Shown here piece by piece: positions 20,725 through 58,233 of a DNA stretch of 64,000 bases (position 1 is its first letter; every line of letters begins with the position of its first letter). The DNA is taken from contig JADLHU010000051.1 of NCBI GenBank assembly GCA_020848655.1, forward strand, positions 1 to 64,000, read 5' to 3'. This DNA is from Novosphingobium sp. Its GTDB lineage: Bacteria; Pseudomonadota; Alphaproteobacteria; Sphingomonadales; Sphingomonadaceae. The notes below the pieces were generated by a model, which made no database searches, was not told the origin of the DNA, and saw only the letters and a list, made by a program, of their open reading frames with translations. Position numbers and translations under genes: made by a program.

Positions 20725-21963
20725 TCAGATGTGGATTTCGGCCAGCGCGCCGCGCATGCAGTGGTTTGACATCATCGCCGCGCCATAGCCGCCGGCATTC
20801 AGGAACGCGATGTGATCGCCTTCGCGCAGTGGCGGCATGGGGTGGTCCTCGGCCCACAGGTCGATCGCTTCGTTGATGTTGCCGGCGATCGTCATGCGCT
20901 GCCAGCGTGCCGTGTCATGTTCGCGCAACAGGCAGGCGGCCGGTTCGCAGGGCAGGCCGTAATGCACCGGCTCGGGGTGGAGGTTGAAGCCGCCCGCCAC
21001 GCTGGCGAACGTGGTGTCGCGCTTGCGCTCCACATCGGTCACTTCCAGCACCAGCAGGCCGGCATCCTTGACCAGATAGTCGCCCGGTTCGACCGCGATG
21101 GCCACGCCGCGCCCGGCGAACTGGCGGGCCAGGATGGCGGACCATTGGGCCAGGTCCAGCGCTGGATCGCCGGCGCGGTGCGGCAGGCCCAGCCCGCCGC
21201 CGATGTTGACGGTGGCGATGTCCGGGATCGCCTCGGCGGCATCGTCGAGGAACGCCAGCGCCGCCGCGACCGCCTGTTCCCAGCGATCGAGTTGCGGCGC
21301 GAGATAGCCGCAGCCGACATGGAAGTGCAGCGTCGTTAGGCGCAGGTCGAAGCGGCGCGCCATGGCCAGCGCTTCGGCCCACTGTTCGCGATAGATGCCG
21401 AACTTGGTGGTCTTCGCACCGGCATAGGTCAGCTTGTCGCTGTCGGCATAGCCGATGCCCGTGGCGGGGTTGACGCGCAGGCCGATGTCGCGGCCCGGCG
21501 CGCGTTCGCCGATGCGGCGGACCATGCCGATCGTGTCGCAATTGATGTGGAGGCCCGGCACCGCGAGCAGGCGATCGAGATCGCGGCTGGAAACGCCGGT
21601 GCCGGTAAAGCTGATGTCGGTGCCGGCAAAGCCGCAGGCCAGCGCCAGGTCCACTTCGTCGGGCGAACAGACATCGGCGCCGCAGCGCCCGCTGGCCGCC
21701 AGCCGTTGCAGCAGCGGCGCGTAGCGGTTGGCCTTGATCGCGTAATAGGCGCGCGTTGCGCAGCCGCTGGCCGCCAGCGCCGCCAGCACGCGGCTCAGAT
21801 TGGCCTCAACCCGATCGAGCGAATAGATATAAAGCGGCGCACCGGCCGCTTCGGCCAGTTCCAGCACGTCGCGCCCGGCAAAGCGCAGGCGCCCGTCGCG
21901 ATAGCCCAGATCGTCGCGCTGCCACCACGGCGGCGTTGCCAGGACGGGCGCGGTGTGCGTCAT
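20725..21963 (-). CDS. PLP-dependent decarboxylase, fold type III (LysA/ODC-like)
   Basis: YYAIKANRYAPLLQRL PLP lysine region, HFHVGCG, NIGGGLGLPHRAG, AGNINEAIDLWAED motifs; ATGA overlap with upstream SET gene. Confidence 0.85.
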   Translation of the reverse strand: MTHTAPVLATPPWWQRDDLGYRDGRLRFAGRDVLELAEAAGAPLYIYSLDRVEANLSRVLAALAASGCATRAYYAIKANRYAPLLQRLAASGRCGADVCSPDEVDLALACGFAGTDISFTGTGVSSRDLDRLLAVPGLHINCDTIGMVRRIGERAPGRDIGLRVNPATGIGYADSDKLTYAGAKTTKFGIYREQWAEALAMARRFDLRLTTLHFHVGCGYLAPQLDRWEQAVAAALAFLDDAAEAIPDIATVNIGGGLGLPHRAGDPALDLAQWSAILARQFAGRGVAIAVEPGDYLVKDAGLLVLEVTDVERKRDTTFASVAGGFNLHPEPVHYGLPCEPAACLLREHDTARWQRMTIAGNINEAIDLWAEDHPMPPLREGDHIAFLNAGGYGAAMMSNHCMRGALAEIHI

Positions 21964-22424
21964 TCGGGCCAATGGGGGGCAAGGTGGCGCAGGCCTTCGG
22001 GGTTTGGCAATTCGTGGCGACCGGTGATCCAGCGGCGGCAGGCAGATGCGCCGCAGCGGCAGGCGAACTGGCGAAACAGCACGTCCTCGGTTGCCGCATA
22101 GTCGATGGTCAGCCAGCCGCCGGCCGGAATATCGGCCAGCGCGATAAGTTCGAAGCGGGCCATGTCGAGTCGGCAGTTGGGCGCGCAACTGTGCGACAGG
22201 AAGCCGATGAAGCGCGTGCCGGAAATGTGCCGTCCGGGCGAAACCTGCAACGTGTGCTGGCGCAGTTCGCCATCGATGGTGCCGGTGAAGCGATCGAGCA
22301 CCGCGCCGGCCGTGGCCGCGCGTTCGGTCACCACGCCCAGCCCGCGCGCTTCGCAGCAGGCGATGGCCAGCGTGTCGTTCGTTGCGCCATCCGCCGCAAG
22401 GGCGCGTGGCCCGTTTAGATACAT
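21960..22424 (-). CDS. SET domain protein (putative lysine methyltransferase) with post-SET Cys cluster
   Basis: CEARGLGVV, RFIGFLSHSCAPNCRLD, GGWLTIDYAATED, CRCGASACRRW canonical SET/post-SET motifs. Confidence 0.88.
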   Translation of the reverse strand: MYLNGPRALAADGATNDTLAIACCEARGLGVVTERAATAGAVLDRFTGTIDGELRQHTLQVSPGRHISGTRFIGFLSHSCAPNCRLDMARFELIALADIPAGGWLTIDYAATEDVLFRQFACRCGASACRRWITGRHELPNPEGLRHLAPHWPE

Positions 22425-22473: not shown

Positions 22474-22911
22474 TCACTCTATGGAGAAAGTCTTAGAAAA
22501 TCGTAGTCGGTTACGGCCTTCTTCGCGCGCGTAGGATACACGATCCATCAGCTTGCGGATCAGGAGCACGCCAAGCCCGCCGATCGCCCGGTCCTCCAGC
22601 GCCAGCGTGGTGTCCGGGTCTTCTCGTGCGAGCGGATCGAACGCGCCGCCGCTGTCGGCCACTTCACCCTCGATGCGGCCTTCGCCGATGATCAGTCGCA
22701 GGTCCACCGTGGGCGTCACGCCGCTTTCGGCCCCACCATGATCGATCGCGTTGCTGATCGCCTCGTCACAGGCGATCATCATGCTTTGCGCGACGGCGGC
22801 GGGAACCGGCGCCGCATCCAGAAACCGCTCGACCTCGTCGAGCAGCGCGGCAAGGCCGGGTCGGCCACTGGCGAGAGTGCGCTCGAAACTCTTGGCGAAA
22901 CTGCTGGCCAT
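22474..22911 (-). CDS. RsbW/SpoIIAB-like anti-sigma factor serine kinase (HATPase)
   Basis: N box ACDEAISNAIDHGG, G1 DSGGAFDP, G2 IGGLGVLLIRKLMD. Confidence 0.88.
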   Translation of the reverse strand: MASSFAKSFERTLASGRPGLAALLDEVERFLDAAPVPAAVAQSMMIACDEAISNAIDHGGAESGVTPTVDLRLIIGEGRIEGEVADSGGAFDPLAREDPDTTLALEDRAIGGLGVLLIRKLMDRVSYAREEGRNRLRFSKTFSIE

Positions 22912-23046
22912 GGCCCTCGTCCCTATCTCGCGGACAGTTGCAATCCCGCAGAAAGCCAGCTTAATCAAGCAGGCGATTATCTCAACGCCGTCCTTGCCGG
23001 GCAGACCCGCATGGCGGGACGGGCGCAGCGCGGAACAACGGGGCCT

Positions 23047-23379
23047 ATGCACATCGAGGAAAACCACACGCCGGGCGCACTGGTGATCGCCGTCAGCGGC
23101 CGGATCGACAGCACCACCGCTGGCGATCTTGAAGCCGTGCTGCCCGCGCGCGTGCAGGCCGAGGACGCCACCGTGCTCGACCTAGCGGACGTCAGCTATG
23201 TCAGTTCGGCCGGGCTGCGCGTGCTACTGAAAGGCGCCAAGACGGCCAAGGCCACGGGCCATCGCCTGACCCTGGCCGGGCTGGCGCCTTCGGTGCAGGA
23301 AGTGTTCGACATCAGCGGCTTCAGCGGCATCTTCCACATCGTGCCCGACGTGGCGTCCGCCTTGGCTGCGCCGGGCTGA
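23047..23379 (+). CDS. STAS-domain anti-sigma factor antagonist (RsbV/SpoIIAA-like)
   Basis: LVIAVSGRIDSTTAGDLEAVL...VLDLADVSYVSSAGLRVLL with phosphoacceptor Ser context. Confidence 0.9.
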   Translation: MHIEENHTPGALVIAVSGRIDSTTAGDLEAVLPARVQAEDATVLDLADVSYVSSAGLRVLLKGAKTAKATGHRLTLAGLAPSVQEVFDISGFSGIFHIVPDVASALAAPG

Positions 23380-23380
23380 T

Positions 23381-24628
23381 TCAGGCCGGCCCGATTGCCG
23401 CGAAGACGCCCGCCGGCGCGATGAGCACGGCGAAACTTTCGATCAGTTCGTGCGGGCTGGCGCCAGCGTGCTGGCCCGCGTGGATCGCGGCGGCGGCTTC
23501 GGTCGCCGGGTCTGCCAGCGCGAGCAGGCGCGGCGCCGTGGCCGCATCGGCGCGAGTCCAGGCCAACGTGCGCTCTTCCACCAAGGCGAAGGCGCGGCGC
23601 GCGATGGCCAGACATTCGGCGGCAGGGCATTCGGCCGGGTCCGCCGTCATCAGCGTGGCTTCCAGATAGCGCTTGGCGGCCAGCGCGTTGGCCAGCGCCT
23701 GCGCGGGCGTTTCGCCCGTGCAGCGGCCCAGCACCACGGCGGCGCGATGGGCATCGCTGGCCAGCGCGATGAAGCAGCCGGGCGCGGCATCGCCCAGCAG
23801 GCGCGTCGCGATCCGGCGCCCGCCAAGGTCCCGTTCGCACGGTCCGAAGCGATCCTGTCGCCAGCCGTCGAGCGCGCCTTGCGGGCTGCGCGCCTGATCG
23901 CGGCGTAGCGCCAGGCGGCGGTCGCGCAGTTCGGCGGCGCGGGCGCTGGCGTCCATCAGGCGCACGGCGGAGGCCAGGTCGCGGGCTTCGCGGATCGCCA
24001 GGTCGCCGCCATCGGGCACGGGGCCGGCGCCGTCGATCGCGGCCAGCGCCCGCGCGTTGGCATCCAGTTCGCGCACGATGCGGCGCGCCACCAGCCAGGC
24101 CAGCAGCGCCGCGATCAGGCCGCCCGCCAGCGCGATCAGCAGCACGATCCGCTTGATCCGCTCGATCCGCGCGAACAGAGGTTCGGCATCGATCGCGGCA
24201 AGGACATAGGCGCCCGGCCCCGCCGGGGCGAGCGCTACCACCTGGCGCGCGCCGGGGGCGGCCTGCGCCATCGGCAGCGCGATCGGCCGGTCCGGGGCCC
24301 TGGCGGGCACGGCGGCCAGCGCCCGGCGCGCCGGAACGAGCGCCAGCGGGGGCGTGTTCGCGCGGACAAGGTACAGCCCGTCAAGCCCGGCGATGCGCGC
24401 GGCGGCGGCGGCAAGGCCCTTGCGGCGCACCGGATCGGCCAGCAGCCGTTCGGCATTGCCGGGCCAGGCCAGGAATTCGGCGGTGGTGACGGCGGCGGAC
24501 AGCGCCTGGGTATCGAGCGCGCGGGCCATTTCGGCGCGCTCCTGGAAATAGAGCAGCGCGCCGTTGACCACGGCCAGCATCAGGAACAGCGGCGCGGTGA
24601 GCAGGATGATCGTCGTGCGGATGGTCAT
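23381..24628 (-). CDS. Membrane HAMP protein with degenerate SpoIIE/PP2C-like C-terminus
   Basis: Two TM segments, HAMP-like LVARRIVRELDANARALAAI; C-terminal FIALASDAHRAAVVLGRCTGETPAQALANAL resembles FVVGDVSGKGVPAALFMAM with the metal Asp replaced. Confidence 0.65.
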   Translation of the reverse strand: MTIRTTIILLTAPLFLMLAVVNGALLYFQERAEMARALDTQALSAAVTTAEFLAWPGNAERLLADPVRRKGLAAAAARIAGLDGLYLVRANTPPLALVPARRALAAVPARAPDRPIALPMAQAAPGARQVVALAPAGPGAYVLAAIDAEPLFARIERIKRIVLLIALAGGLIAALLAWLVARRIVRELDANARALAAIDGAGPVPDGGDLAIREARDLASAVRLMDASARAAELRDRRLALRRDQARSPQGALDGWRQDRFGPCERDLGGRRIATRLLGDAAPGCFIALASDAHRAAVVLGRCTGETPAQALANALAAKRYLEATLMTADPAECPAAECLAIARRAFALVEERTLAWTRADAATAPRLLALADPATEAAAAIHAGQHAGASPHELIESFAVLIAPAGVFAAIGPA

Positions 24629-25023
24629 GCCCGGCCCTCGCGCTCCAGCGCGGCCAGCCCGACGATGAAATCGGGGCATTCGCGCGCGATGGTGAACAAG
24701 TGCGGCTTGGCCAGGCACAGCGCGGTGAAGCCCTGCGGCCCGGCGTGGTGATCGGCGCGCACCGGCAGGCCGAACAGCACAGAGGGCGCATCGAACACGG
24801 GCACAGCCGGACCAAGCGGGGTCAGAGCATCGCCCTCGCAGCCGACAAAGAGGAACTCGGCGACACTGCCCGCCGCGAGCAGCACCGCACCAGGATCGAA
24901 CCGGCGCTGGCGAGCATGGCGGGCGATGAGCAGCAGCTCGCTTTCATCGAGCAGATGGAACGGCCGCACCGCGCGCAGGACGGTGGCGGTATCCGCGATC
25001 CGGGCGGTGTCCATCCCGTTCAT
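24625..25023 (-). CDS. Cyclic nucleotide-binding-like domain protein (small)
   Basis: VLRAVRPFHLLDESELLLIARHARQRRFDPGAVLLAAGSVAEFLFVGCEG: cNMP-domain N-half pattern; 4-bp overlaps with both neighbours. Confidence 0.68.
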   Translation of the reverse strand: MNGMDTARIADTATVLRAVRPFHLLDESELLLIARHARQRRFDPGAVLLAAGSVAEFLFVGCEGDALTPLGPAVPVFDAPSVLFGLPVRADHHAGPQGFTALCLAKPHLFTIARECPDFIVGLAALEREGRA

Positions 25024-26306
25024 GGCCGGTCCGCCGGTGGCAGGGTGAAGCGGCGATCGCCGAAAGCGGCCTCGACGTGCGCGGTGGCGGGCAGGGGGGC
25101 GGGGTGTCCGGCGACGAGGGCCACCGGCGTGCCGTTGACCCGCACCTCTGCGCTGGTCGCGCCGACGCATTCGAGCGTTCCCGCGGCGTGGTCGCGGATC
25201 AGGCAGGCGCCGTGATCCAGATCGGCCAGATCGCGCCAGCGGGCCGCCAGCGCCGGGTCGCGCGCGATCGTGCGCCCCAGTTCGGCCATCGCCAGCATGG
25301 CCAGGCCCACGGCGGGATCGCGCGCGTCCCCGGCCAGCCAGGCGACGCTGCGCACGGCGTCGTGGGCCAGCAGCGCGAAAGGCGCGGCATCGGCGGCCAG
25401 CGCCTGGCCCAGCAGCGCCGCGTCGGCCGCGCGCTCGTGCCGCTCGGCGGTGTCGCGGCGTTGGGCGGCGCGCGCGGTCATCCGCGCGGCGATGGCGGCC
25501 AGAGCATCGCGCAGCCGCGCCACTTCGCGCGGGCCGCGAATGCGCGCCGGCTCGGCGAAATCGCCCGCCGCGATGCGCAGGGCTTCCTGCTTCAGCCGCG
25601 TGATCGGCCCGCCGATCAGCCGCACCAGCGCCAGCGCCACGACCAGGCAGGCGAGCACCGATCCGATGCCGATCATCGCGCTGGCGAACAGCGCGTTCTG
25701 CGTGGCGACGCGGATCACCGAGATGTTCACATCGGCCCCGGCGGTGCCCGCGATGCGGCCATCGGGCGCATAGAGCGGCGCGGCGGCGGTTTTCAGCAAG
25801 CCCCATTTTTCCTGGTATTCGATCGGCGAGACATAGACCCCGCCGGTCTTCTGGCTGTGCCGCAGCCCAGCCATGGTCTCGGCCGGCAGCGCATCGGCAT
25901 AGCCGACGTTCGAGTGATCATCGCCGAACGAGCTGTCGAGGATATATTCGATGTCCTGCGGCCCGCCCAGGATTTGGCTGTACAGGTAGGTCAGCCCCAG
26001 CTTCTGCCGGATCTGCTGCATCGGCACGACATTGCGGCGATAGGCCTCGCCCTGTTCCAGCACCAGCGGATCGCCGCCGGCGTGCCAGGCGCGGACCAGC
26101 GCGGCGTGATCGGCCGGATCGACCAGCGCGCCGGCGAGCGCGCTCGTCGTCACCAGCTTGCGATCGAACCCGTCGACGATCGTGCCCGAAAGCCAGGTGT
26201 AGACCATGGTGGCGAGCAGCATCGCCGCCGCGATGACGGCGGGCAGGAACGTGCGCAGCAGCAGCGACTGGATGGGCAGGCCGTTACGCCGCATAAGGCC
26301 GCTCAT
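25020..26306 (-). CDS. Membrane sensor with Cache-like periplasmic domain, HAMP, and divergent PP2C-like C-terminus
   Basis: TM-periplasmic-TM; LVRLIGGPITRLKQEALRIAAGDF HAMP; C-terminal FALLAHDAVRSVAWLAGDARDPAVGLAMLAMAEL resembles SpoIIE core. Confidence 0.68.
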   Translation of the reverse strand: MSGLMRRNGLPIQSLLLRTFLPAVIAAAMLLATMVYTWLSGTIVDGFDRKLVTTSALAGALVDPADHAALVRAWHAGGDPLVLEQGEAYRRNVVPMQQIRQKLGLTYLYSQILGGPQDIEYILDSSFGDDHSNVGYADALPAETMAGLRHSQKTGGVYVSPIEYQEKWGLLKTAAAPLYAPDGRIAGTAGADVNISVIRVATQNALFASAMIGIGSVLACLVVALALVRLIGGPITRLKQEALRIAAGDFAEPARIRGPREVARLRDALAAIAARMTARAAQRRDTAERHERAADAALLGQALAADAAPFALLAHDAVRSVAWLAGDARDPAVGLAMLAMAELGRTIARDPALAARWRDLADLDHGACLIRDHAAGTLECVGATSAEVRVNGTPVALVAGHPAPLPATAHVEAAFGDRRFTLPPADRP

Positions 26307-28755
26307 CCTGCGATTTCAGCATGACCAGCGCGAGGTCGGCATGGCGCGCGGCGATTTCGTCCACATCGCGATAGCGCACCCAGGCCGGCCCTTCCGCAGT
26401 GTCGAGCCGCAGGGCCGCTTCATCGCCGGCCTGCGCCACCGCGCGCACCGCCAGCGCCGCCAGCGCATCGAGCGAGGCCCCGCCCAGTTCGCGCGAACGG
26501 GCCAGCGCATCGATCACCGCCAGCAAGGCGGGACCATGCCCGGGCGCGATGCCCAGCAGGCGGCGCAGATCGGCGCGCAGCATCGGCGCGATGCCGGGGC
26601 GCAGCGCCTGGCGCGCGATCCGCGCGAAGGCCGGCGCGGCCAGGCGGGCATGAAGCGCGTGCGCGGCGGCCAGCGCTTCGACCGGGCGGCCCGCCCGCAG
26701 CGCATCCTCCAGCAGCGGGGCGAGGTCGGGCGCGGCGGCGCCGCTGCCGTCGCCGGCCGGCGCGGCTTGCGCGTGCAGCAGCGGGCGCAGCAACTGGAAC
26801 GTGGCGTAATCGACCCCCGTCTCGATCGCCTCGATGGCGTTGCCGCGCACTTTCGGATTGGCCGAATGGAGCGAGACGACGAGCAGGTCGAAGGTTGGCA
26901 GCAGGCCGGCCAGCGCCAGCATTTCCAGCGCGAAGTCGATCGCCGCGCCCACGCGCTCGCGACTGGCGCGGGCCAGCAGGGCCACGGCGCGGTCGTTCAC
27001 GCAGGCGTCCTTGCCGCCATGCTCCAGCGCCGCCGCGCCGGCCAGCAGCGCCCGCGCTTCGCGCAGTTCCAGATGGACCAGCCCTTCGATCTGCGACAGC
27101 AACTGGCCATAGGACAGTTCGGCCAGCGCGCGGGCCGCCACGGCGCGCGCGCGGAACGGCATGCGCCGATCCTGCAAGGCGCTGACCAGGCGGGGGATCG
27201 CCGTCTCGCCGGTTTCGACCAGGCTGGCGGCGATGGCGCGCCGGTCGCGCGGGGCCAGCGTATCGGCGGCGGCAAGAAGCTGGGGGATCGTTTCGGTATC
27301 GCCGATGCGGCCCAGCATGGCCACCGCATCGAGCCGTCCCGCCTGCGGCAGGCCGCCAAGCCCGGCGATCAGGCCGGGAACGAGGTGGAGATCGTCGGGG
27401 CCGGGGCCGGCTGCCGGGGCATCGGCGCGCGCGGCGCGGTGGCGGTCGGCGAAGTTCATCCAGCCGCGCCGCATGTTGCGCGCCATCGCGGTGGGATAAA
27501 GCTGGCGCAGGAACACCACGATCGCGATCAGCGCCGCGCCCACGATCAGCCCGATACCCGACAGTTCGCGCATGTCCATGCGGCTGGCGAACAGCAGCAG
27601 GAAGCCGCCCGCCAGCAGGCTGGCCAGCGGTTCGCACATCCCTTCCACCACGGTGCGCAACGGGCGCTTCACATCGGATGGCACGGCGTTGAACAACAGG
27701 TTCTGGTTGTTGTATTCGATCGAGGTAAGCACGCCGTGATAGGCGAAGAACGCCGCCAGCGCCGCGCCGGTGCCGCCGTGCAGGAAGAAATAGCCGAAGG
27801 CCGCAAAATAGCTGAGCGGCAGGATGAAGGCGACGTTGCGCACGCCGAAGCGCGTGACCAGCCGGTTGAACACGAACAGGCAGACGATCAGGTTGAAGAT
27901 GTTCGACGCCGCATAGAGCTGGCCGAACAGCGCCGCCAGTTCGGCTTCGCTGCGGCCTTGTTCCAGCACGGTGGAATACTGGAATTCCGCCAGGTTGGTC
28001 AGCAGCAGGGTGACGAACAGCGTGGCCGCCAGCACCAGCGTGTAAGGCGAAAAGCGCAACGCCCGCGCCACCGCCGCCAGTTGCCCGAACGCGCCCTTGC
28101 CCGCGCCGGCATCGTCCACCGCATCGACTTCGCTTTCCGCGATCTGCGGCCAGCGCGCCTGGAGCATGCGCGATACCGGCACCGTGGCGATGGCGATGCC
28201 GGCCCAGATCAGCATGAAATAGGGCATCGGGATCACGCCGGCGCCCAGGCTGACGATCATCGCGCCCGCCGCCGTGCCCAGCGAACAGAACGCGGCGAAC
28301 AGCGGGAACAGGCGCTTGGCGTCCTGGATGTCGAAATAGCTGTCGGTGAAGTTCCAGAACAAGGTGTAGAGTGCGATGTACCAGACGGCGAGGTAGAGCT
28401 TCAGCCCGTAATAGACCGCCGCGTGCCATTCGGGCGCGATCTCGCCGTTGAGCAGCGCCCACAGCGCCGCGCCGCCCGCGATCAGCAGGGCCAGCGTCAC
28501 ATCGACCATGTGACCGATCGAATGGCGCACCAGCAGATACGAAAACACGCCCGTGTAGAGCAGCATGACCGGCGGGATCAGCAGGAAGATCACCGGCAGC
28601 TTGTCGGCGCCGACATTGCTGAGGAAGGCCGCGTCGCCCGCGCTGAAGCCCACGCCCATGCCCATCTGGAGCATGAAGCCGAATAGCCCGAACTGGAGCA
28701 GTTTCGGCATTTCGCCGCGCTCCAGCCGGAACAGCCGGTTCAGCAGTTCGCTCAA
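26284..28755 (-). CDS. ATP/ADP translocase (TLC/Npt)-like membrane protein fused to HEAT repeats
   Basis: About 12 hydrophobic segments in the N-terminal half (DAAFLSNVGADKLPVIFLLIPPVMLLYTGVFSYLL... LYTLFWNFTDSYFDIQDAKRLFPLFAAFCSLG), then Ala-rich helical repeats. Confidence 0.82.
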   Translation of the reverse strand: MSELLNRLFRLERGEMPKLLQFGLFGFMLQMGMGVGFSAGDAAFLSNVGADKLPVIFLLIPPVMLLYTGVFSYLLVRHSIGHMVDVTLALLIAGGAALWALLNGEIAPEWHAAVYYGLKLYLAVWYIALYTLFWNFTDSYFDIQDAKRLFPLFAAFCSLGTAAGAMIVSLGAGVIPMPYFMLIWAGIAIATVPVSRMLQARWPQIAESEVDAVDDAGAGKGAFGQLAAVARALRFSPYTLVLAATLFVTLLLTNLAEFQYSTVLEQGRSEAELAALFGQLYAASNIFNLIVCLFVFNRLVTRFGVRNVAFILPLSYFAAFGYFFLHGGTGAALAAFFAYHGVLTSIEYNNQNLLFNAVPSDVKRPLRTVVEGMCEPLASLLAGGFLLLFASRMDMRELSGIGLIVGAALIAIVVFLRQLYPTAMARNMRRGWMNFADRHRAARADAPAAGPGPDDLHLVPGLIAGLGGLPQAGRLDAVAMLGRIGDTETIPQLLAAADTLAPRDRRAIAASLVETGETAIPRLVSALQDRRMPFRARAVAARALAELSYGQLLSQIEGLVHLELREARALLAGAAALEHGGKDACVNDRAVALLARASRERVGAAIDFALEMLALAGLLPTFDLLVVSLHSANPKVRGNAIEAIETGVDYATFQLLRPLLHAQAAPAGDGSGAAAPDLAPLLEDALRAGRPVEALAAAHALHARLAAPAFARIARQALRPGIAPMLRADLRRLLGIAPGHGPALLAVIDALARSRELGGASLDALAALAVRAVAQAGDEAALRLDTAEGPAWVRYRDVDEIAARHADLALVMLKSQDERPYAA

Positions 28756-28835
28756 TTGGTCCCCCGCCGACGTGCCCGGCCAAAATCATCACATGGTTTC
28801 GGGCATCTTAATCACTCGTTGTCACTAAATCCTTT

Positions 28836-30608
28836 ATGCAGCGCATGCTTTCGAGCGGGGCGATGACGGGGACAGTTCAAGCGATGACGGCAGGCGGGGA
28901 AACGGGGCACGGTGCTGGCGGAGCGGCGGGCCGAGGCGCGCGCCGGGGTGCTGGCCCAGGTGCGGGCGAGGCCACGGATGGGGCCGAGCGTGCATCGGGT
29001 CGGCGCGGATTGGGGCTGAAGCCGCAGTTGCTGGCGCTGCTGTTCATGCTCAATCTCGTGGCGGCGGCGGCCTATTCCAGCGTCATCTACAACACCAACC
29101 GCACCGAATTCATGGCCGGGGTCGATGCCCGCCTGCTGGCCGCGACCCATGCCGCGCAGGAAATCATCCCCGATCGCTATCACGAGGCGATCACCGGCCC
29201 GCAATCGATCCCCAAGGCCGAATTCGATGCGCTGCAGGCGCGCCTGTCGCGCTTCGCCAACCGGTCGGGCTTCGTCTACGTCTATACCTACATGAAGCTG
29301 GGCAACCAGATCCGCACCGTCGCCACCAGCGCGACCGACCAGGAAATCGCGGCCGGCCGGCAGACCCCTTTCTTCGCGCTTTACGATACCGCGCCGCGCA
29401 AGCTGTTCGAAAGTTTCGCCGACGGGCGCACCCGGTTCGATGAATACAACGATTCGTTCGGGCGCTTCCGGTCGATCTACCGGCCGGTGCGCATGGCCGA
29501 TGGCCGCGTCTATGTGGTCGGCGCGGACGTGGACCTGGCCCATCTGGCCAAGCGCCAGGCCGAAGTGCTGACCAAGGCGATCCTTATCGGCGTGGGCATG
29601 TTCACGCTGTCGATGGCGCTGGGCTGGCTGCTGGTGGCGCGGATCGTCGATCCGCTGGTGCGGCTGACGTCGTTCACGAAGAACATGGAACGGCGCAGCT
29701 TCCAGCCCGACGTGTCCGAGATGGCGGCGATGCGCAAGATCAGCGGATCGCGCGGCGACGAAGTGGGCCGTCTGGCCGAGGCGATGGCCGCGATGATCGC
29801 GCGCCTGCAACGCTATCTGGTGGAAGTGGAAGCCGCCACCGCCGCGCGCGAACGCGTGGAAGGCGAACTGTCCGCCGCGCGCGACATCCAGATCGGCATG
29901 TTGCCGCGCAAGTTCCCGCCCTTTCCCGAACGCACCGATCTGGATGTGTTCGCCATGCTCGAATCGGCCAAGCAGGTCGGCGGCGATCTGTACGACTACT
30001 TCATGATCGACGAGAACCGGCTGTTCTTCGTGGTCGGCGACGTTTCGGGCAAGGGCGTGCCAGCGGCGCTGTTCATGGCGATGACCGCGATCCGCTTCAA
30101 GGCGCACGCTTTTTCCGCCGCGTCCACCGGCGAGATCATGGAACTGGTCAACACCTCGCTCTCGCGCGAGAATCCGGCCGAGATGTTCGTCACCGCCTTC
30201 GCCGCGATCCTCGATCTGCGCGATGGCACGGTGGAATACACCGATGGCGGCCACGAAGCCCCGTTCCTGATCCGCGCCGATGGCCGCGTCGATCGGCTGG
30301 CCAAGCACCAGGGCATGGCGCTGGGCGTGTTCGAGGACGTGCCCTACAAGACCGATCGCTTCACGCTGGCGCCGGGCGATGCGATCGTCCTGTTCACCGA
30401 TGGCGTTTCGGAAGCCACCGACAAGGACGATCAGTTGTTCTCGGTCGAGCGGATCGGCGATGCGCTGGCGCAGGCGCGCGCCAGTTCCTCGGCCCGGCTG
30501 ATCGCCGACGGACTGGCCGAAAGCGTGCGCGGCTTCGTCGGCACCGTGCCGCAGTCGGATGACATCGCGATTCTGGTGGTGTGCTACGAGCCGGCGCCCG
30601 CGGGTTAG
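28836..30608 (+). CDS. SpoIIE/RsbU-type PP2C serine phosphatase with periplasmic sensor and HAMP
   Basis: GGDLYDYFMIDENRLFFVVGDVSGKGVPAALFMAM, YTDGGHEAPFLI, LFTDGVSEATD; start codon uncertain. Confidence 0.92.
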   Translation: MQRMLSSGAMTGTVQAMTAGGETGHGAGGAAGRGARRGAGPGAGEATDGAERASGRRGLGLKPQLLALLFMLNLVAAAAYSSVIYNTNRTEFMAGVDARLLAATHAAQEIIPDRYHEAITGPQSIPKAEFDALQARLSRFANRSGFVYVYTYMKLGNQIRTVATSATDQEIAAGRQTPFFALYDTAPRKLFESFADGRTRFDEYNDSFGRFRSIYRPVRMADGRVYVVGADVDLAHLAKRQAEVLTKAILIGVGMFTLSMALGWLLVARIVDPLVRLTSFTKNMERRSFQPDVSEMAAMRKISGSRGDEVGRLAEAMAAMIARLQRYLVEVEAATAARERVEGELSAARDIQIGMLPRKFPPFPERTDLDVFAMLESAKQVGGDLYDYFMIDENRLFFVVGDVSGKGVPAALFMAMTAIRFKAHAFSAASTGEIMELVNTSLSRENPAEMFVTAFAAILDLRDGTVEYTDGGHEAPFLIRADGRVDRLAKHQGMALGVFEDVPYKTDRFTLAPGDAIVLFTDGVSEATDKDDQLFSVERIGDALAQARASSSARLIADGLAESVRGFVGTVPQSDDIAILVVCYEPAPAG

Positions 30609-30654
30609 TCTGATGGAATGAACGGTGATGGCCCCGCGTGAGGCCGTCACCCCG

Positions 30655-31446
30655 TCACCCCGGCAGCACGAAGGCCGCGCGGTCCACGCCGTGCATCTTG
30701 CGCAAGTACAACCGCATGTCGGCGATCGCCTTGTGCAGCGCCGCATCGCAGGTTGGCGGGGCGGCAACGGCGGCCATGCTCATCGCGCAGGTTTCCAGGT
30801 CCCAGGGCATGAAATCGAACCCGGTTTCGGCCTCCAGCATCCAGATCACCGGATAGGGGCGGCCGAACATCACGCCCTTCAGTTCCTCGCGCCCGACCAG
30901 ATAGAGGCTGGCCTCGGCGCGGTTCGGCGCGACCAGCAGCACTTCCGCCAGATCGAGCGACAGCACCAGCGTGGCCGGGCGGGCGAACTTGGACAGGCGA
31001 AAGCCAAGGTCGATGTCCGGCCCGATGAAGTCCACATGCGGCGCGCTGTCTTCCGAGGACAGTTCGGGGATATCGAGTTCGATGTTGCTTTCGGCGAAAT
31101 CGGCCAGCCAGGCGGCGCCTTTCAACCGCAGCGGCAGCGCTTCGAGGCGGGACTGTTCGTAGCGGCGCATGGTGCGCAGCAGCGCGATCAGGATCGTCGT
31201 CACTTCGCTGGCGGATGACGGCTCGACCACGAAGATCACTTCGTCGCCCATGACTTTCCACACTTCCACCGCCGGGGTCTCGTCCTCGTCGAGGAATTCG
31301 AAGCCAAGCTGGCCGGCCAGCATCAGCGGGAAGTGCGTGAAGAAGGTGCGGAAGGTGTCCAGCCAGCCCGCGCTGCCCCGGCCGGTGTGGCTGGCCTTGA
31401 ACAGCGTGGAGCCGACCATGTCGACCGAAAGGAAAAGCCGCAGCAT
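30655..31446 (-). CDS. Class III adenylate/guanylate cyclase-like protein
   Basis: LFLSVDMVGSTLFK and VWKVMGDEVIFVV cyclase homology motifs; GPDIDLGFRLSKFA in place of usual VNxAARL. Confidence 0.65.
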   Translation of the reverse strand: MLRLFLSVDMVGSTLFKASHTGRGSAGWLDTFRTFFTHFPLMLAGQLGFEFLDEDETPAVEVWKVMGDEVIFVVEPSSASEVTTILIALLRTMRRYEQSRLEALPLRLKGAAWLADFAESNIELDIPELSSEDSAPHVDFIGPDIDLGFRLSKFARPATLVLSLDLAEVLLVAPNRAEASLYLVGREELKGVMFGRPYPVIWMLEAETGFDFMPWDLETCAMSMAAVAAPPTCDAALHKAIADMRLYLRKMHGVDRAAFVLPG

Positions 31447-31459
31447 CGCGGGGCCGCGC

Positions 31460-32176
31460 TCAGAAGCTCGCCAGCAGCGATGCGACCACGGCGCCGCGCC
31501 CTGCCCGCCCGGCCTCGTCGGCGGCGCCATAGTCGCTGTCGATGTAGGACAAGGATGCGGTGATGGGGCCGTGCGACCAAGACAGGCCCGCCTCCCAGTC
31601 CCACTTCTTGAAGGCCGGATTGCTCTCGCGCCCGCCGCGCAGCCGCAGCGTCAGCGGGGTGGCGGGCAGCGCCACGTCCACTTTCGCGCCAAGGTAGAGG
31701 TTCTCGTAGCCGTAGTTGTCCTGATCGGGAATGTACGAGACTTGCGCTTCGAAGGCGGCGGGGCCGATCGTCCGGCCCAGCGTGCCGGCCAGTTCGATGT
31801 AGTTCACGCCGTGCCCGCCCGGATAGACATAGCCCAGCACCTTGGCGCTGTAATCCAGCCCGCCAGCCGATCCGGCATAGCCGCCGTACAAGTCCAGTTC
31901 CATGTGCGAACCGCCGGTGTTGGACACGTTCGATGCCCAGGTGCCCACGAAGAAGCCGCTGGCGGTGGTCACGTCGATGCCGCCCTGGACCGCCGGATCG
32001 CGGCCCGACAGGCTGATGCCGCGAAAGCGATAATCGGAAACCACGCCGATATTGGCGGAAATCTCGATGGCATCGGGCGCGTCGGTGGGGGCGCCTTGCG
32101 CGCGCGCGGCAGTGGCCCCGCCCATTGCCGGAACCAGCGCAAGCGCCGCCACAGTGATCCTGCCGAATAGTGTCAC
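31460..32176 (-). CDS. TorF family putative porin (Gcw_chp-type outer membrane protein)
   Basis: ISANIGVVSDYRFRGISLSGRDPAVQGGIDVTTASGFFVGTWASNVS. Confidence 0.85.
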   Translation of the reverse strand: MTLFGRITVAALALVPAMGGATAARAQGAPTDAPDAIEISANIGVVSDYRFRGISLSGRDPAVQGGIDVTTASGFFVGTWASNVSNTGGSHMELDLYGGYAGSAGGLDYSAKVLGYVYPGGHGVNYIELAGTLGRTIGPAAFEAQVSYIPDQDNYGYENLYLGAKVDVALPATPLTLRLRGGRESNPAFKKWDWEAGLSWSHGPITASLSYIDSDYGAADEAGRAGRGAVVASLLASF

Positions 32177-56941: not shown

Positions 56942-58233
56942 CACCATCCCGCTCCCGCATGGGCCAGCGCCTTGACCGGAATATGGATGCGCACCAGCGC
57001 GCCGCCGGCGGGCGGGTTGCACACTTCGACCCGGCCGCCCAGCTTGCGCACCACGTTGACCACGAGGAACAGCCCCAGCCCGCCGCCGGCCCGGCCCTTG
57101 GTGGAGGAATAGGGCCGCCCGAAGGCTTCGAGCATCGCCGGCGCGAAGCCGGGACCGCGATCCGCCACATCCAGGATCACTTCGCCACCGGCCAGCCGCG
57201 CCGCCAGTTCGACGAAGGCGGGCGAAACTTCGAGCGCATTGTCGATCACGTTGCCGATCACCTGGCGCAGCGCCGGATCGGACACGATGGCCAGATCATC
57301 ATCGATGGCATCGCGCAAGCGCACCGCGCCGCCGCTGCGATCCGCCCATTCGCTGGCGATGGCCCGGACGAACGCCGTGAGCGTGGTCAGCGAAGGGCTT
57401 TCGCCGCGCGCCTCGCCCGCCGACATCAGGATGCCCGAAACGATCGACTTGCAGCGTTGCAGTTCGCCGTTCATGTCCTCAAGCTCGCTTGCCAGTTCGG
57501 GGTCGGCAAGGATTTCGGGGCGCTTCAGCCAGTCGCCCACCAGCACCGCCATCGTCGCCATCGGCGTGCCCAGTTCGTGCGCCGCGCCGGACGCCAGCAG
57601 CCCCATGCGCACGATGTGGTGTTCTTCCGCCGCCTGCTGGCGCAGCGCGGCCAGCGCCGCATCGCTTTGCCGCCGGTTGCGATCGATGCGGATCACGAAG
57701 AACACCAGCAAGGCCGCGATCAGCACGAAGCAGATCAGGCTGCCCACCAGATAGAGCCGCATCGGATGTCCGGCGTGCGGCTGGGGCAGCAGCAGCGGCT
57801 GGTAGGCGAACGTCAGCGCGCCGACGACCAGCGCGGCCAGCGCGGCGACGATCCAGCTCCAGTTGGTGGGCAGCAGGATCGCGCCGATCACGATCTGGAG
57901 CAGGAACAGGAAGGTGAACGGATTGTTCGATCCGCCGCTGAAATAAAGCTGCCAGGCCAGCGCCATGACATCGAGCATCAGCGCGCCGAGCAGTTCCAGG
58001 TAGGTATAGCCCTCGCGCTCGCGCCCCATGACCATGGTGGCCAGGTTGACCAGCGCCAGCAGCACCGGCACCGCGATCAGTTGCGGCAGCGGCAGCACCA
58101 CGCCCAGATAGGCCGAGGCGAAGCCGATCGTCACCAGTTGGCCGATCACCGCCATCCAGCGCAGTTGCACCAGCAGCGCCATGTTGCGCGCGCTGGCCGG
58201 CGGATAGGACATCGAGGAACGCAGGGCGATCAT
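56941..58233 (-). CDS. regB: RegB/PrrB redox-sensing histidine kinase
   Basis: GGSNNPF membrane motif, H-box GAAHELGTPMATM, cysteine motif LQRCKSIVSGIL; short stop/start overlap with regA. Confidence 0.93.
   Translation of the reverse strand: MIALRSSMSYPPASARNMALLVQLRWMAVIGQLVTIGFASAYLGVVLPLPQLIAVPVLLALVNLATMVMGREREGYTYLELLGALMLDVMALAWQLYFSGGSNNPFTFLFLLQIVIGAILLPTNWSWIVAALAALVVGALTFAYQPLLLPQPHAGHPMRLYLVGSLICFVLIAALLVFFVIRIDRNRRQSDAALAALRQQAAEEHHIVRMGLLASGAAHELGTPMATMAVLVGDWLKRPEILADPELASELEDMNGELQRCKSIVSGILMSAGEARGESPSLTTLTAFVRAIASEWADRSGGAVRLRDAIDDDLAIVSDPALRQVIGNVIDNALEVSPAFVELAARLAGGEVILDVADRGPGFAPAMLEAFGRPYSSTKGRAGGGLGLFLVVNVVRKLGGRVEVCNPPAGGALVRIHIPVKALAHAGAGW

Follow-up and report, generated by a model that had tools for sequence, protein, structure and literature searches.

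The window analysed here is a 64,000-nucleotide stretch of a Novosphingobium sp. draft assembly (GCA_020848655.1, contig JADLHU010000051.1, positions 1 to 64,000; 199 contigs, approximately 88% complete). It contains ten adjacent genes that form one conserved unit beyond chance, given their identical order and orientation in 24 of 27 alphaproteobacterial loci. With a probability of approximately 0.55, this block is read as a membrane-sensing partner-switching island that controls sulfonium production, i.e. the formation of S-methylmethionine (SMM) and then of dimethylsulfoniopropionate (DMSP)-amine or DMSP. What computation established is the gene content and order, the linkage across phyla, the folds, the state of the catalytic residues and the families to which the enzymes belong.

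Gene content and conservation of the island

An initial annotation had delimited an island of eight genes at 22474–31446. All eight were found there by open reading frame (ORF) calls and Pfam, including a four-gene minus-strand operon for which overlaps of 4–23 bp had been claimed. This operon encodes a TLC/nucleotide transporter (NTT)-like membrane domain of major facilitator superfamily (MFS) fold fused to HEAT repeats (TLC-HEAT, 26284–28755), the membrane sensor HAMP-1 (25020–26306), a small protein with a cyclic nucleotide monophosphate (cNMP)-binding fold (24625–25023) and the membrane sensor HAMP-2 (23381–24628), with successive overlaps of 23, 4 and 4 bp. On the plus strand, the gene for a STAS anti-anti-sigma-type protein (23047–23379) stops 1 bp short of the end of the HAMP-2 gene and is divergent from the minus-strand gene for an RsbW-like anti-sigma/serine kinase (22474–22911), with 135 bp between them. 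A second plus-strand gene, for a membrane sensor-HAMP-SpoIIE phosphatase (28836–30608, the start being perhaps at 28863), is divergent from the TLC-HEAT operon across 80–107 bp, and a class III cyclase-fold protein is encoded on the minus strand at 30655–31446. The genes were real, but the boundary was two minus-strand genes too narrow: after a gap of 49 bp the RsbW gene is followed by one for a SET-domain protein (21960–22424), which overlaps by 16 bp a gene for a pyridoxal phosphate-dependent decarboxylase (20725–21975), and both are part of the block.

The scan of named genomes yielded 34 loci, and the 27 alphaproteobacterial ones cover Novosphingobium, Sphingopyxis and Sphingomonas/Rhizorhabdus (Sphingomonadales) and Phenylobacterium. 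The shared order runs cyclase-like protein, phosphatase, TLC-HEAT, HAMP-1, cNMP-fold protein, HAMP-2, STAS, RsbW, SET and decarboxylase; in two incomplete loci, L020 and L031, the contig ends within the block. The block is also complete in two further genomes, one being an 850 kb plasmid of Sphingomonas paeninsulae. RsbW, SET and decarboxylase genes form a tight set, overlapping or only briefly interrupted in almost every locus, and in Novosphingobium mangrovi (L036:16255-17937) the last two are naturally fused into one ORF of 561 amino acids (aa). Pairwise distances of the ten families correlate with one another (r 0.59–0.96), which fits joint inheritance.

The spread of the block is patchy. 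Strong full-length homologues of TLC-HEAT were found in 5 of 251 genomes of the family, its own included, and strong cyclase matches in 3 of 251 genomes of the order, all of one genus, in which 14 listed congeners were without one. A class-wide profile survey placed the TLC family in its own genome alone among 387 genomes; the rarity this suggested was set aside when the named-genome scans showed a wider, though patchy, spread. Public annotation hides the block under names such as ‘hypothetical’, ‘MFS transporter’, ‘lysine methyltransferase’ and ‘diaminopimelate decarboxylase’. Next to the cyclase gene lies one for a TorF-family putative porin (31460–32176, minus strand; TIGR02001, 6e-38), a frequent but inconstant neighbour (17 of 31 loci).

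A core of TLC-HEAT, HAMP-1, cNMP-fold protein and HAMP-2 recurs in Verrucomicrobia (L042–L045, L077 and L078) and in cyanobacteria (L047 and L079, the order differing in L079). The decarboxylase gene adjoins that of the transporter-like protein or lies one to two genes off in L042, L077, L078 and L079, and is not nearby in L043 and L044. The run in Verrucomicrobium L078 consists of STAS, a glgX-like gene, STAS, RsbW and a decarboxylase fused to a class I methyltransferase, and continues with TLC-HEAT, HAMP-1, cNMP-fold protein, HAMP-2 and a SpoIIE phosphatase, so that two phyla show a linkage of the switch, a decarboxylase–methyltransferase pair and the NTT-HEAT operon. The operon and the switch, whose co-location in other genomes the initial annotation had left to be checked, thus occur together across orders and in this one Verrucomicrobium. 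The fusion lies at L078:4214-6205, and its methyltransferase is homologous to those near the L042 and L077 decarboxylases.

Enzyme families of the SET-domain protein and the decarboxylase

The best solved relative of the SET protein is BurB (PDB 9l4t; E 8.6e-37 for the single sequence and 1.4e-52 for the family profile, against which the best histone enzyme scores 8e-13). BurB converts methionine to SMM (PMC12542666, PMC7496086), and was described in a 2026 review as reported from Burkholderia thailandensis only (PMC13360808). The window protein is 50% identical to it, with the S-adenosylmethionine and active-site residues R42, H72, H93, Y124 and R133 identical, H138 replaced by Arg and S88 by Ile. 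It is very probably, to judge from this family placement, a BurB-family methionine S-methyltransferase that forms SMM. A BurB-like SET gene (48%) is also carried by the phage-like plasmid p7 of Rhizobium bangladeshense (L098:8917-9786), where it adjoins genes for an S-adenosylmethionine decarboxylase and an asparagine-synthase-like protein.

The decarboxylase (Orn_Arg_deC_N, 5.5e-32) is usually annotated as diaminopimelate decarboxylase (DapDC, LysA), an assignment rejected here: it scores 209 bits against a LysA model cut-off of 297.9, has GNINE where DapDC has GPxCE, and is at most approximately 31% identical to true DapDC, which a long branch sets apart from its clade in the gene tree (support 94/97). 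An exosortase-linked decarboxylase (TIGR03099) was likewise dismissed, at 145 of 478 bits. The island decarboxylases are 51–58% identical (51% for the window protein) to that of a bur-like cluster in Eleftheria terrae, in which a BurB-type SET protein is likewise encoded, together with an aminotransferase and an aldehyde dehydrogenase. In Rhizobium lusitanum a decarboxylase of the same clade adjoins a match to MmtN (7vvv, E 3.9e-105), and a third partner of the clade, in Verrucomicrobia and once fused, is a class I methyltransferase that is not MmtN-like by sequence. Since one decarboxylase clade thus accompanies three unrelated methyltransferases, two of them from known SMM-making families, SMM decarboxylation appears to be the likeliest reaction. 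The absence of GPxCE, together with the grouping with decarboxylases beside MmtN and in the bur-like cluster, indicates that the window protein is probably an SMM decarboxylase. Its likeness to BurI is based on the description of BurI and SMM decarboxylase (SMMDC) as DapDC-like (PMC11464771) and on its sharing a clade with decarboxylases of SMM-forming clusters. On a plasmid of Rhodovulum sp. P5 (L101:7971-10201), the ORF of an SMM-type decarboxylase continues into the beginning of an MmtN-like methyltransferase, with the remainder of the latter in a second ORF and an aminotransferase upstream.

The RefSeq names in S. paeninsulae and a distant similarity to histone methyltransferases would accord with a SET protein that methylates protein lysines beside a decarboxylase that makes a polyamine, with no sulfonium chemistry; this appears improbable, as the SET family profile matches BurB far better than any histone enzyme and the decarboxylase clade adjoins MmtN elsewhere and is without the DapDC-type Cys motif. 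It is also conceivable, though very unlikely, that the enzymes belong to a secondary-metabolite route like those to malleicyprol or gonyol, of which sphingomonads keep the precursor steps only. Such a route is favoured by the nonribosomal peptide synthetase (NRPS) genes that lie close to the operon in L042, L044 and L077, although the pieces near L042 look fragmentary, and by the bur-like polyketide synthase (PKS) cluster in Eleftheria, but there is no NRPS or PKS gene in the conserved block of the 24 alphaproteobacterial loci. In two of the verrucomicrobial loci (L044:16877-21350 and L077:13427-19899), genes for a class III aminotransferase and for NRPS modules, within which a methyltransferase domain is embedded, lie convergent behind HAMP-2.

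The partner switch and the membrane sensors

The three switch proteins keep their catalytic residues. In the RsbW-like protein (HATPase_c_2, 1.3e-23) the residues of the N, G1 and G2 boxes are invariant (N54, D86/G88 and G111–G114), as are both S53 and S54 in the SSAGLR motif of the STAS protein (STAS, 1.7e-18). In the phosphatase (SpoIIE, 9e-49), the metal-site aspartates D375 and D393 are invariant and D513 and D566/567 nearly so. Its earlier description as a complete Cache/HAMP/SpoIIE protein holds for the SpoIIE and HAMP domains but not for Cache, no family of which was detected by Pfam. PP2C-like tails had further been attributed to both HAMP proteins, and this was borne out for HAMP-2 only. 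HAMP-2 aligns to the phosphatase family in hhalign over 334 columns, which extend across the first half of SpoIIE, and the GDVSGKG of the phosphatase is GRCTGET in HAMP-2; it is therefore likely a pseudophosphatase, an assignment based on hhalign and on weak Foldseek matches to RsbU and RssB, the full-length Foldseek search giving no match below 0.001. The similarity of HAMP-1 (HAMP, 4.4e-6) to the phosphatase (hhalign, 2.2e-18) lies instead in the sensor and HAMP half.

The output of this switch had been considered unknown since no sigma factor gene was seen in the island. That gene is indeed absent from the window island, and none was found upstream in L078, but a concrete candidate output had been missed, since the RsbW gene leads directly into those for the BurB-type SET protein and the SMM-type decarboxylase. 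The 135 bp region ahead of this set (22912–23046) contains an element, TTGnGA-N15-17-TAnnnT, oriented toward RsbW-SET-decarboxylase and present in 17 of 26 loci, against a mean of 0.04 in shuffled sequences for a pattern that was chosen after seeing the sequences. The element looks like a housekeeping promoter, and a search of both intergenic regions gave no EcfG-like motif.

These observations bear on a further possibility, tentative and rather unlikely, in which the switch frees an unlinked sigma factor of the general stress response and the SET and decarboxylase genes are one target among many. It would suit the full RsbU/RsbV/RsbW-type set, the lack of an encoded sigma factor in both the window island and L078, and the presence in the assembly of a single RsbW of the island's type. 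It accords less well with the housekeeping-looking element and the missing EcfG-like motif, or with the similar RbaVW switch of Rhodobacter, for which no sigma partner is detectable (PMC3999984) and which indicates that an alphaproteobacterial switch may be without one. A second HATPase frame, with a weak match, lies at 57049–57270 on the minus strand of the window.

The transporter-like, cNMP-fold and cyclase-like proteins

The TLC domain of TLC-HEAT scores 22.0 bits against a Pfam cut-off of 21, beside a HEAT_2 match of 29.5 bits (8.9e-7), and it matches the Arabidopsis transporter AtNTT1 weakly (E 0.0012). Residues E245 and E385 of AtNTT1 are presumably the key charged residues of a functional NTT. 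The position aligned with E385 is an invariant Glu (E257) and that aligned with E245, in a weak alignment, is not acidic, so that the domain appears to be a distant NTT relative that keeps one of the two key glutamates that could be aligned and has lost the other. For the small protein, Pfam gave nothing with the single window sequence and the family profile matches cNMP domains; the cNMP-binding fold proposed earlier is accordingly kept, but the Glu and Arg of the phosphate-binding cassette are not conserved in 31 cNMP-like sequences.

Pfam likewise gave nothing for the single cyclase-like sequence, and its family was not significantly similar to PDB sequences (E 0.16 to Rv1900c), so its identity rests on the fold. 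Here the class III assignment was upheld: the AlphaFold2 model (pLDDT 90.8) has class III adenylyl cyclases as its top Foldseek matches (CyaC, E 8.5e-11, probability 1.0). Across 25 cyclase-like sequences D9, K64, D68, D139 and R150 are invariant, at what we take to be the expected sites of the metal-binding Asp, adenine-specifying Lys/Asp and Arg residues (Rv1625c numbering). Five of six catalytic residues are thereby kept, and the sixth, the transition-state Asn, is Asp146 throughout. Distant cyclase-like relatives (approximately 28–32%) occur in two-gene units (L061:6393-7826, L062:4396-6165, L063:6112-7902 and L099:2438-4002) with a partner gene of approximately 180–190 aa, an ImmA/IrrE metallopeptidase in L061 and L099. 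These units have low GC content at third codon positions (GC3) in the alphaproteobacterial loci and look like a mobile two-gene system; similar cyclase matches were found on Leptospira and Tistrella plasmids.

The initial annotation had proposed an energy- or nucleotide-sensing circuit, in which the NTT-like protein would move or sense ATP/ADP, the cyclase make cyclic AMP (cAMP), the cNMP-fold protein bind it and the switch set transcription. The TLC match, the cyclase fold with its ATP-type K64/D139, the cNMP fold and the invariant Glu aligned with AtNTT1 E385 all point that way, and tuning of NTT uptake by cAMP was proposed by Major et al. 2017 (PMC5381601). The losses of the cNMP cassette residues and of one transporter glutamate, the latter judged from a weak alignment, leave such a circuit unsupported and make it one option among several; with the cyclase Asn being Asp in every member and two co-conserved sulfonium enzymes left unexplained, it is considered unlikely.

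A possible route from membrane signal to sulfonium product

Under the preferred reading of a switch that controls sulfonium synthesis, for which we infer the enzyme activities, their control, the kind of signal and what the transporter-like protein does, a periplasmic or membrane signal would be read by the three related membrane sensors (the active SpoIIE phosphatase, the likely pseudophosphatase and HAMP-1) and by the NTT-like HEAT and cNMP-fold proteins. The active phosphatase would then dephosphorylate the STAS protein, which could bind the RsbW-like kinase and so release the kinase's other target, which may be the cyclase, one of the two enzymes or a sigma factor encoded elsewhere. This release would free the production or activity of the SET enzyme (methionine to SMM) and the decarboxylase (SMM to DMSP-amine), and a general aminotransferase and aldehyde dehydrogenase could finish DMSP. 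The cyclase-like protein may be a second partner or a second-messenger arm, and NTT-HEAT, instead of exchanging ATP/ADP, may serve to export the sulfonium product or to sense it. An extension to a closed signalling loop, in which the enzymes make a sulfonium amine, NTT-HEAT exports or gates it, the three sensors read it back and the switch and cyclase arm respond, is speculative and quite unlikely; if true, it would give NTT-HEAT proteins their first function.

Several points weigh against the proposed control of sulfonium production. Because BurB contacts methionine mainly via main-chain atoms, side-chain conservation is no proof of substrate, and correlated family distances are also expected from plain vertical descent. 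In L019, STAS, RsbW, SET and decarboxylase genes were not seen in the 5.4 kb downstream; several verrucomicrobial and cyanobacterial loci, on contigs that often end, have the transporter operon with no visible switch, and SET, cyclase and switch genes were not found near the cyanobacterial operons. Equivalents of BurD and BurE are not in the island either, an absence compatible with DMSP formation because burD and burE are replaceable in B. thailandensis, in which burB and burI are essential (PMC7496086).

If the proposal holds, a BurB-type methionine S-methyltransferase and its decarboxylase are placed in soil and freshwater sphingomonads and in Phenylobacterium, the literature found having BurB from Burkholderia only. 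It would also suggest that synthesis of sulfonium compounds of the type of DMSP can be run by a dedicated phospho-switch. DMSP is a stress-protecting sulfur compound. The NTT-HEAT proteins, which are widespread, uncharacterised and also present in Chlamydia, gain a conserved gene context and with it a testable function.

Comparison with known systems

SiaABCD of Pseudomonas aeruginosa likewise unites a HAMP-SpoIIE phosphatase with a STAS-type protein and a cyclase; SiaD is a diguanylate cyclase, in contrast to the class III type of the island, and NTT-HEAT is not known from the Sia locus. The match to the SiaA model was below its cut-off. With the sigma-B-type RsbU/RsbV/RsbW and the RbaV/RbaW/RbaY of Rhodobacter (PMC3999984) the island shares a SpoIIE phosphatase, a STAS protein with a phosphorylatable Ser and a HATPase kinase, and with Rba the lack of a nearby sigma factor gene; unlike both, its switch is linked to an NTT-HEAT operon, to a likely pseudophosphatase, to a class III cyclase-like protein and to putative sulfonium enzymes, and its STAS and RsbW genes are transcribed away from each other. 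Common to the island and to the NTT-HEAT and NTT-HEAT-cNBD proteins, which a 2017 account called uncharacterised (Major, Embley and Williams, PMC5381601), are the NTT and HEAT domains followed by a separate or fused cNMP-type domain. In the passages considered, that account mentions neither HAMP proteins nor a partner switch, and neither a cyclase partner nor sulfonium enzymes; the island has a defined operon context and a degenerate cNMP site. The bur/DMSP genes BurB-BurI-BurD-BurE (PMC7496086, PMC12542666) and the MmtN clusters (PMC9135737) share the BurB-family SET protein beside an SMM-type decarboxylase, but the island has no BurD, BurE or NRPS in the block and its enzymes sit behind an RsbW gene. 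No literature joining NTT-HEAT or BurB with partner switching was found, within an incomplete coverage of that literature. The parts of the island are thus of known kinds, and it is their conserved combination and the proposed sulfonium output that, as far as tested, are new.

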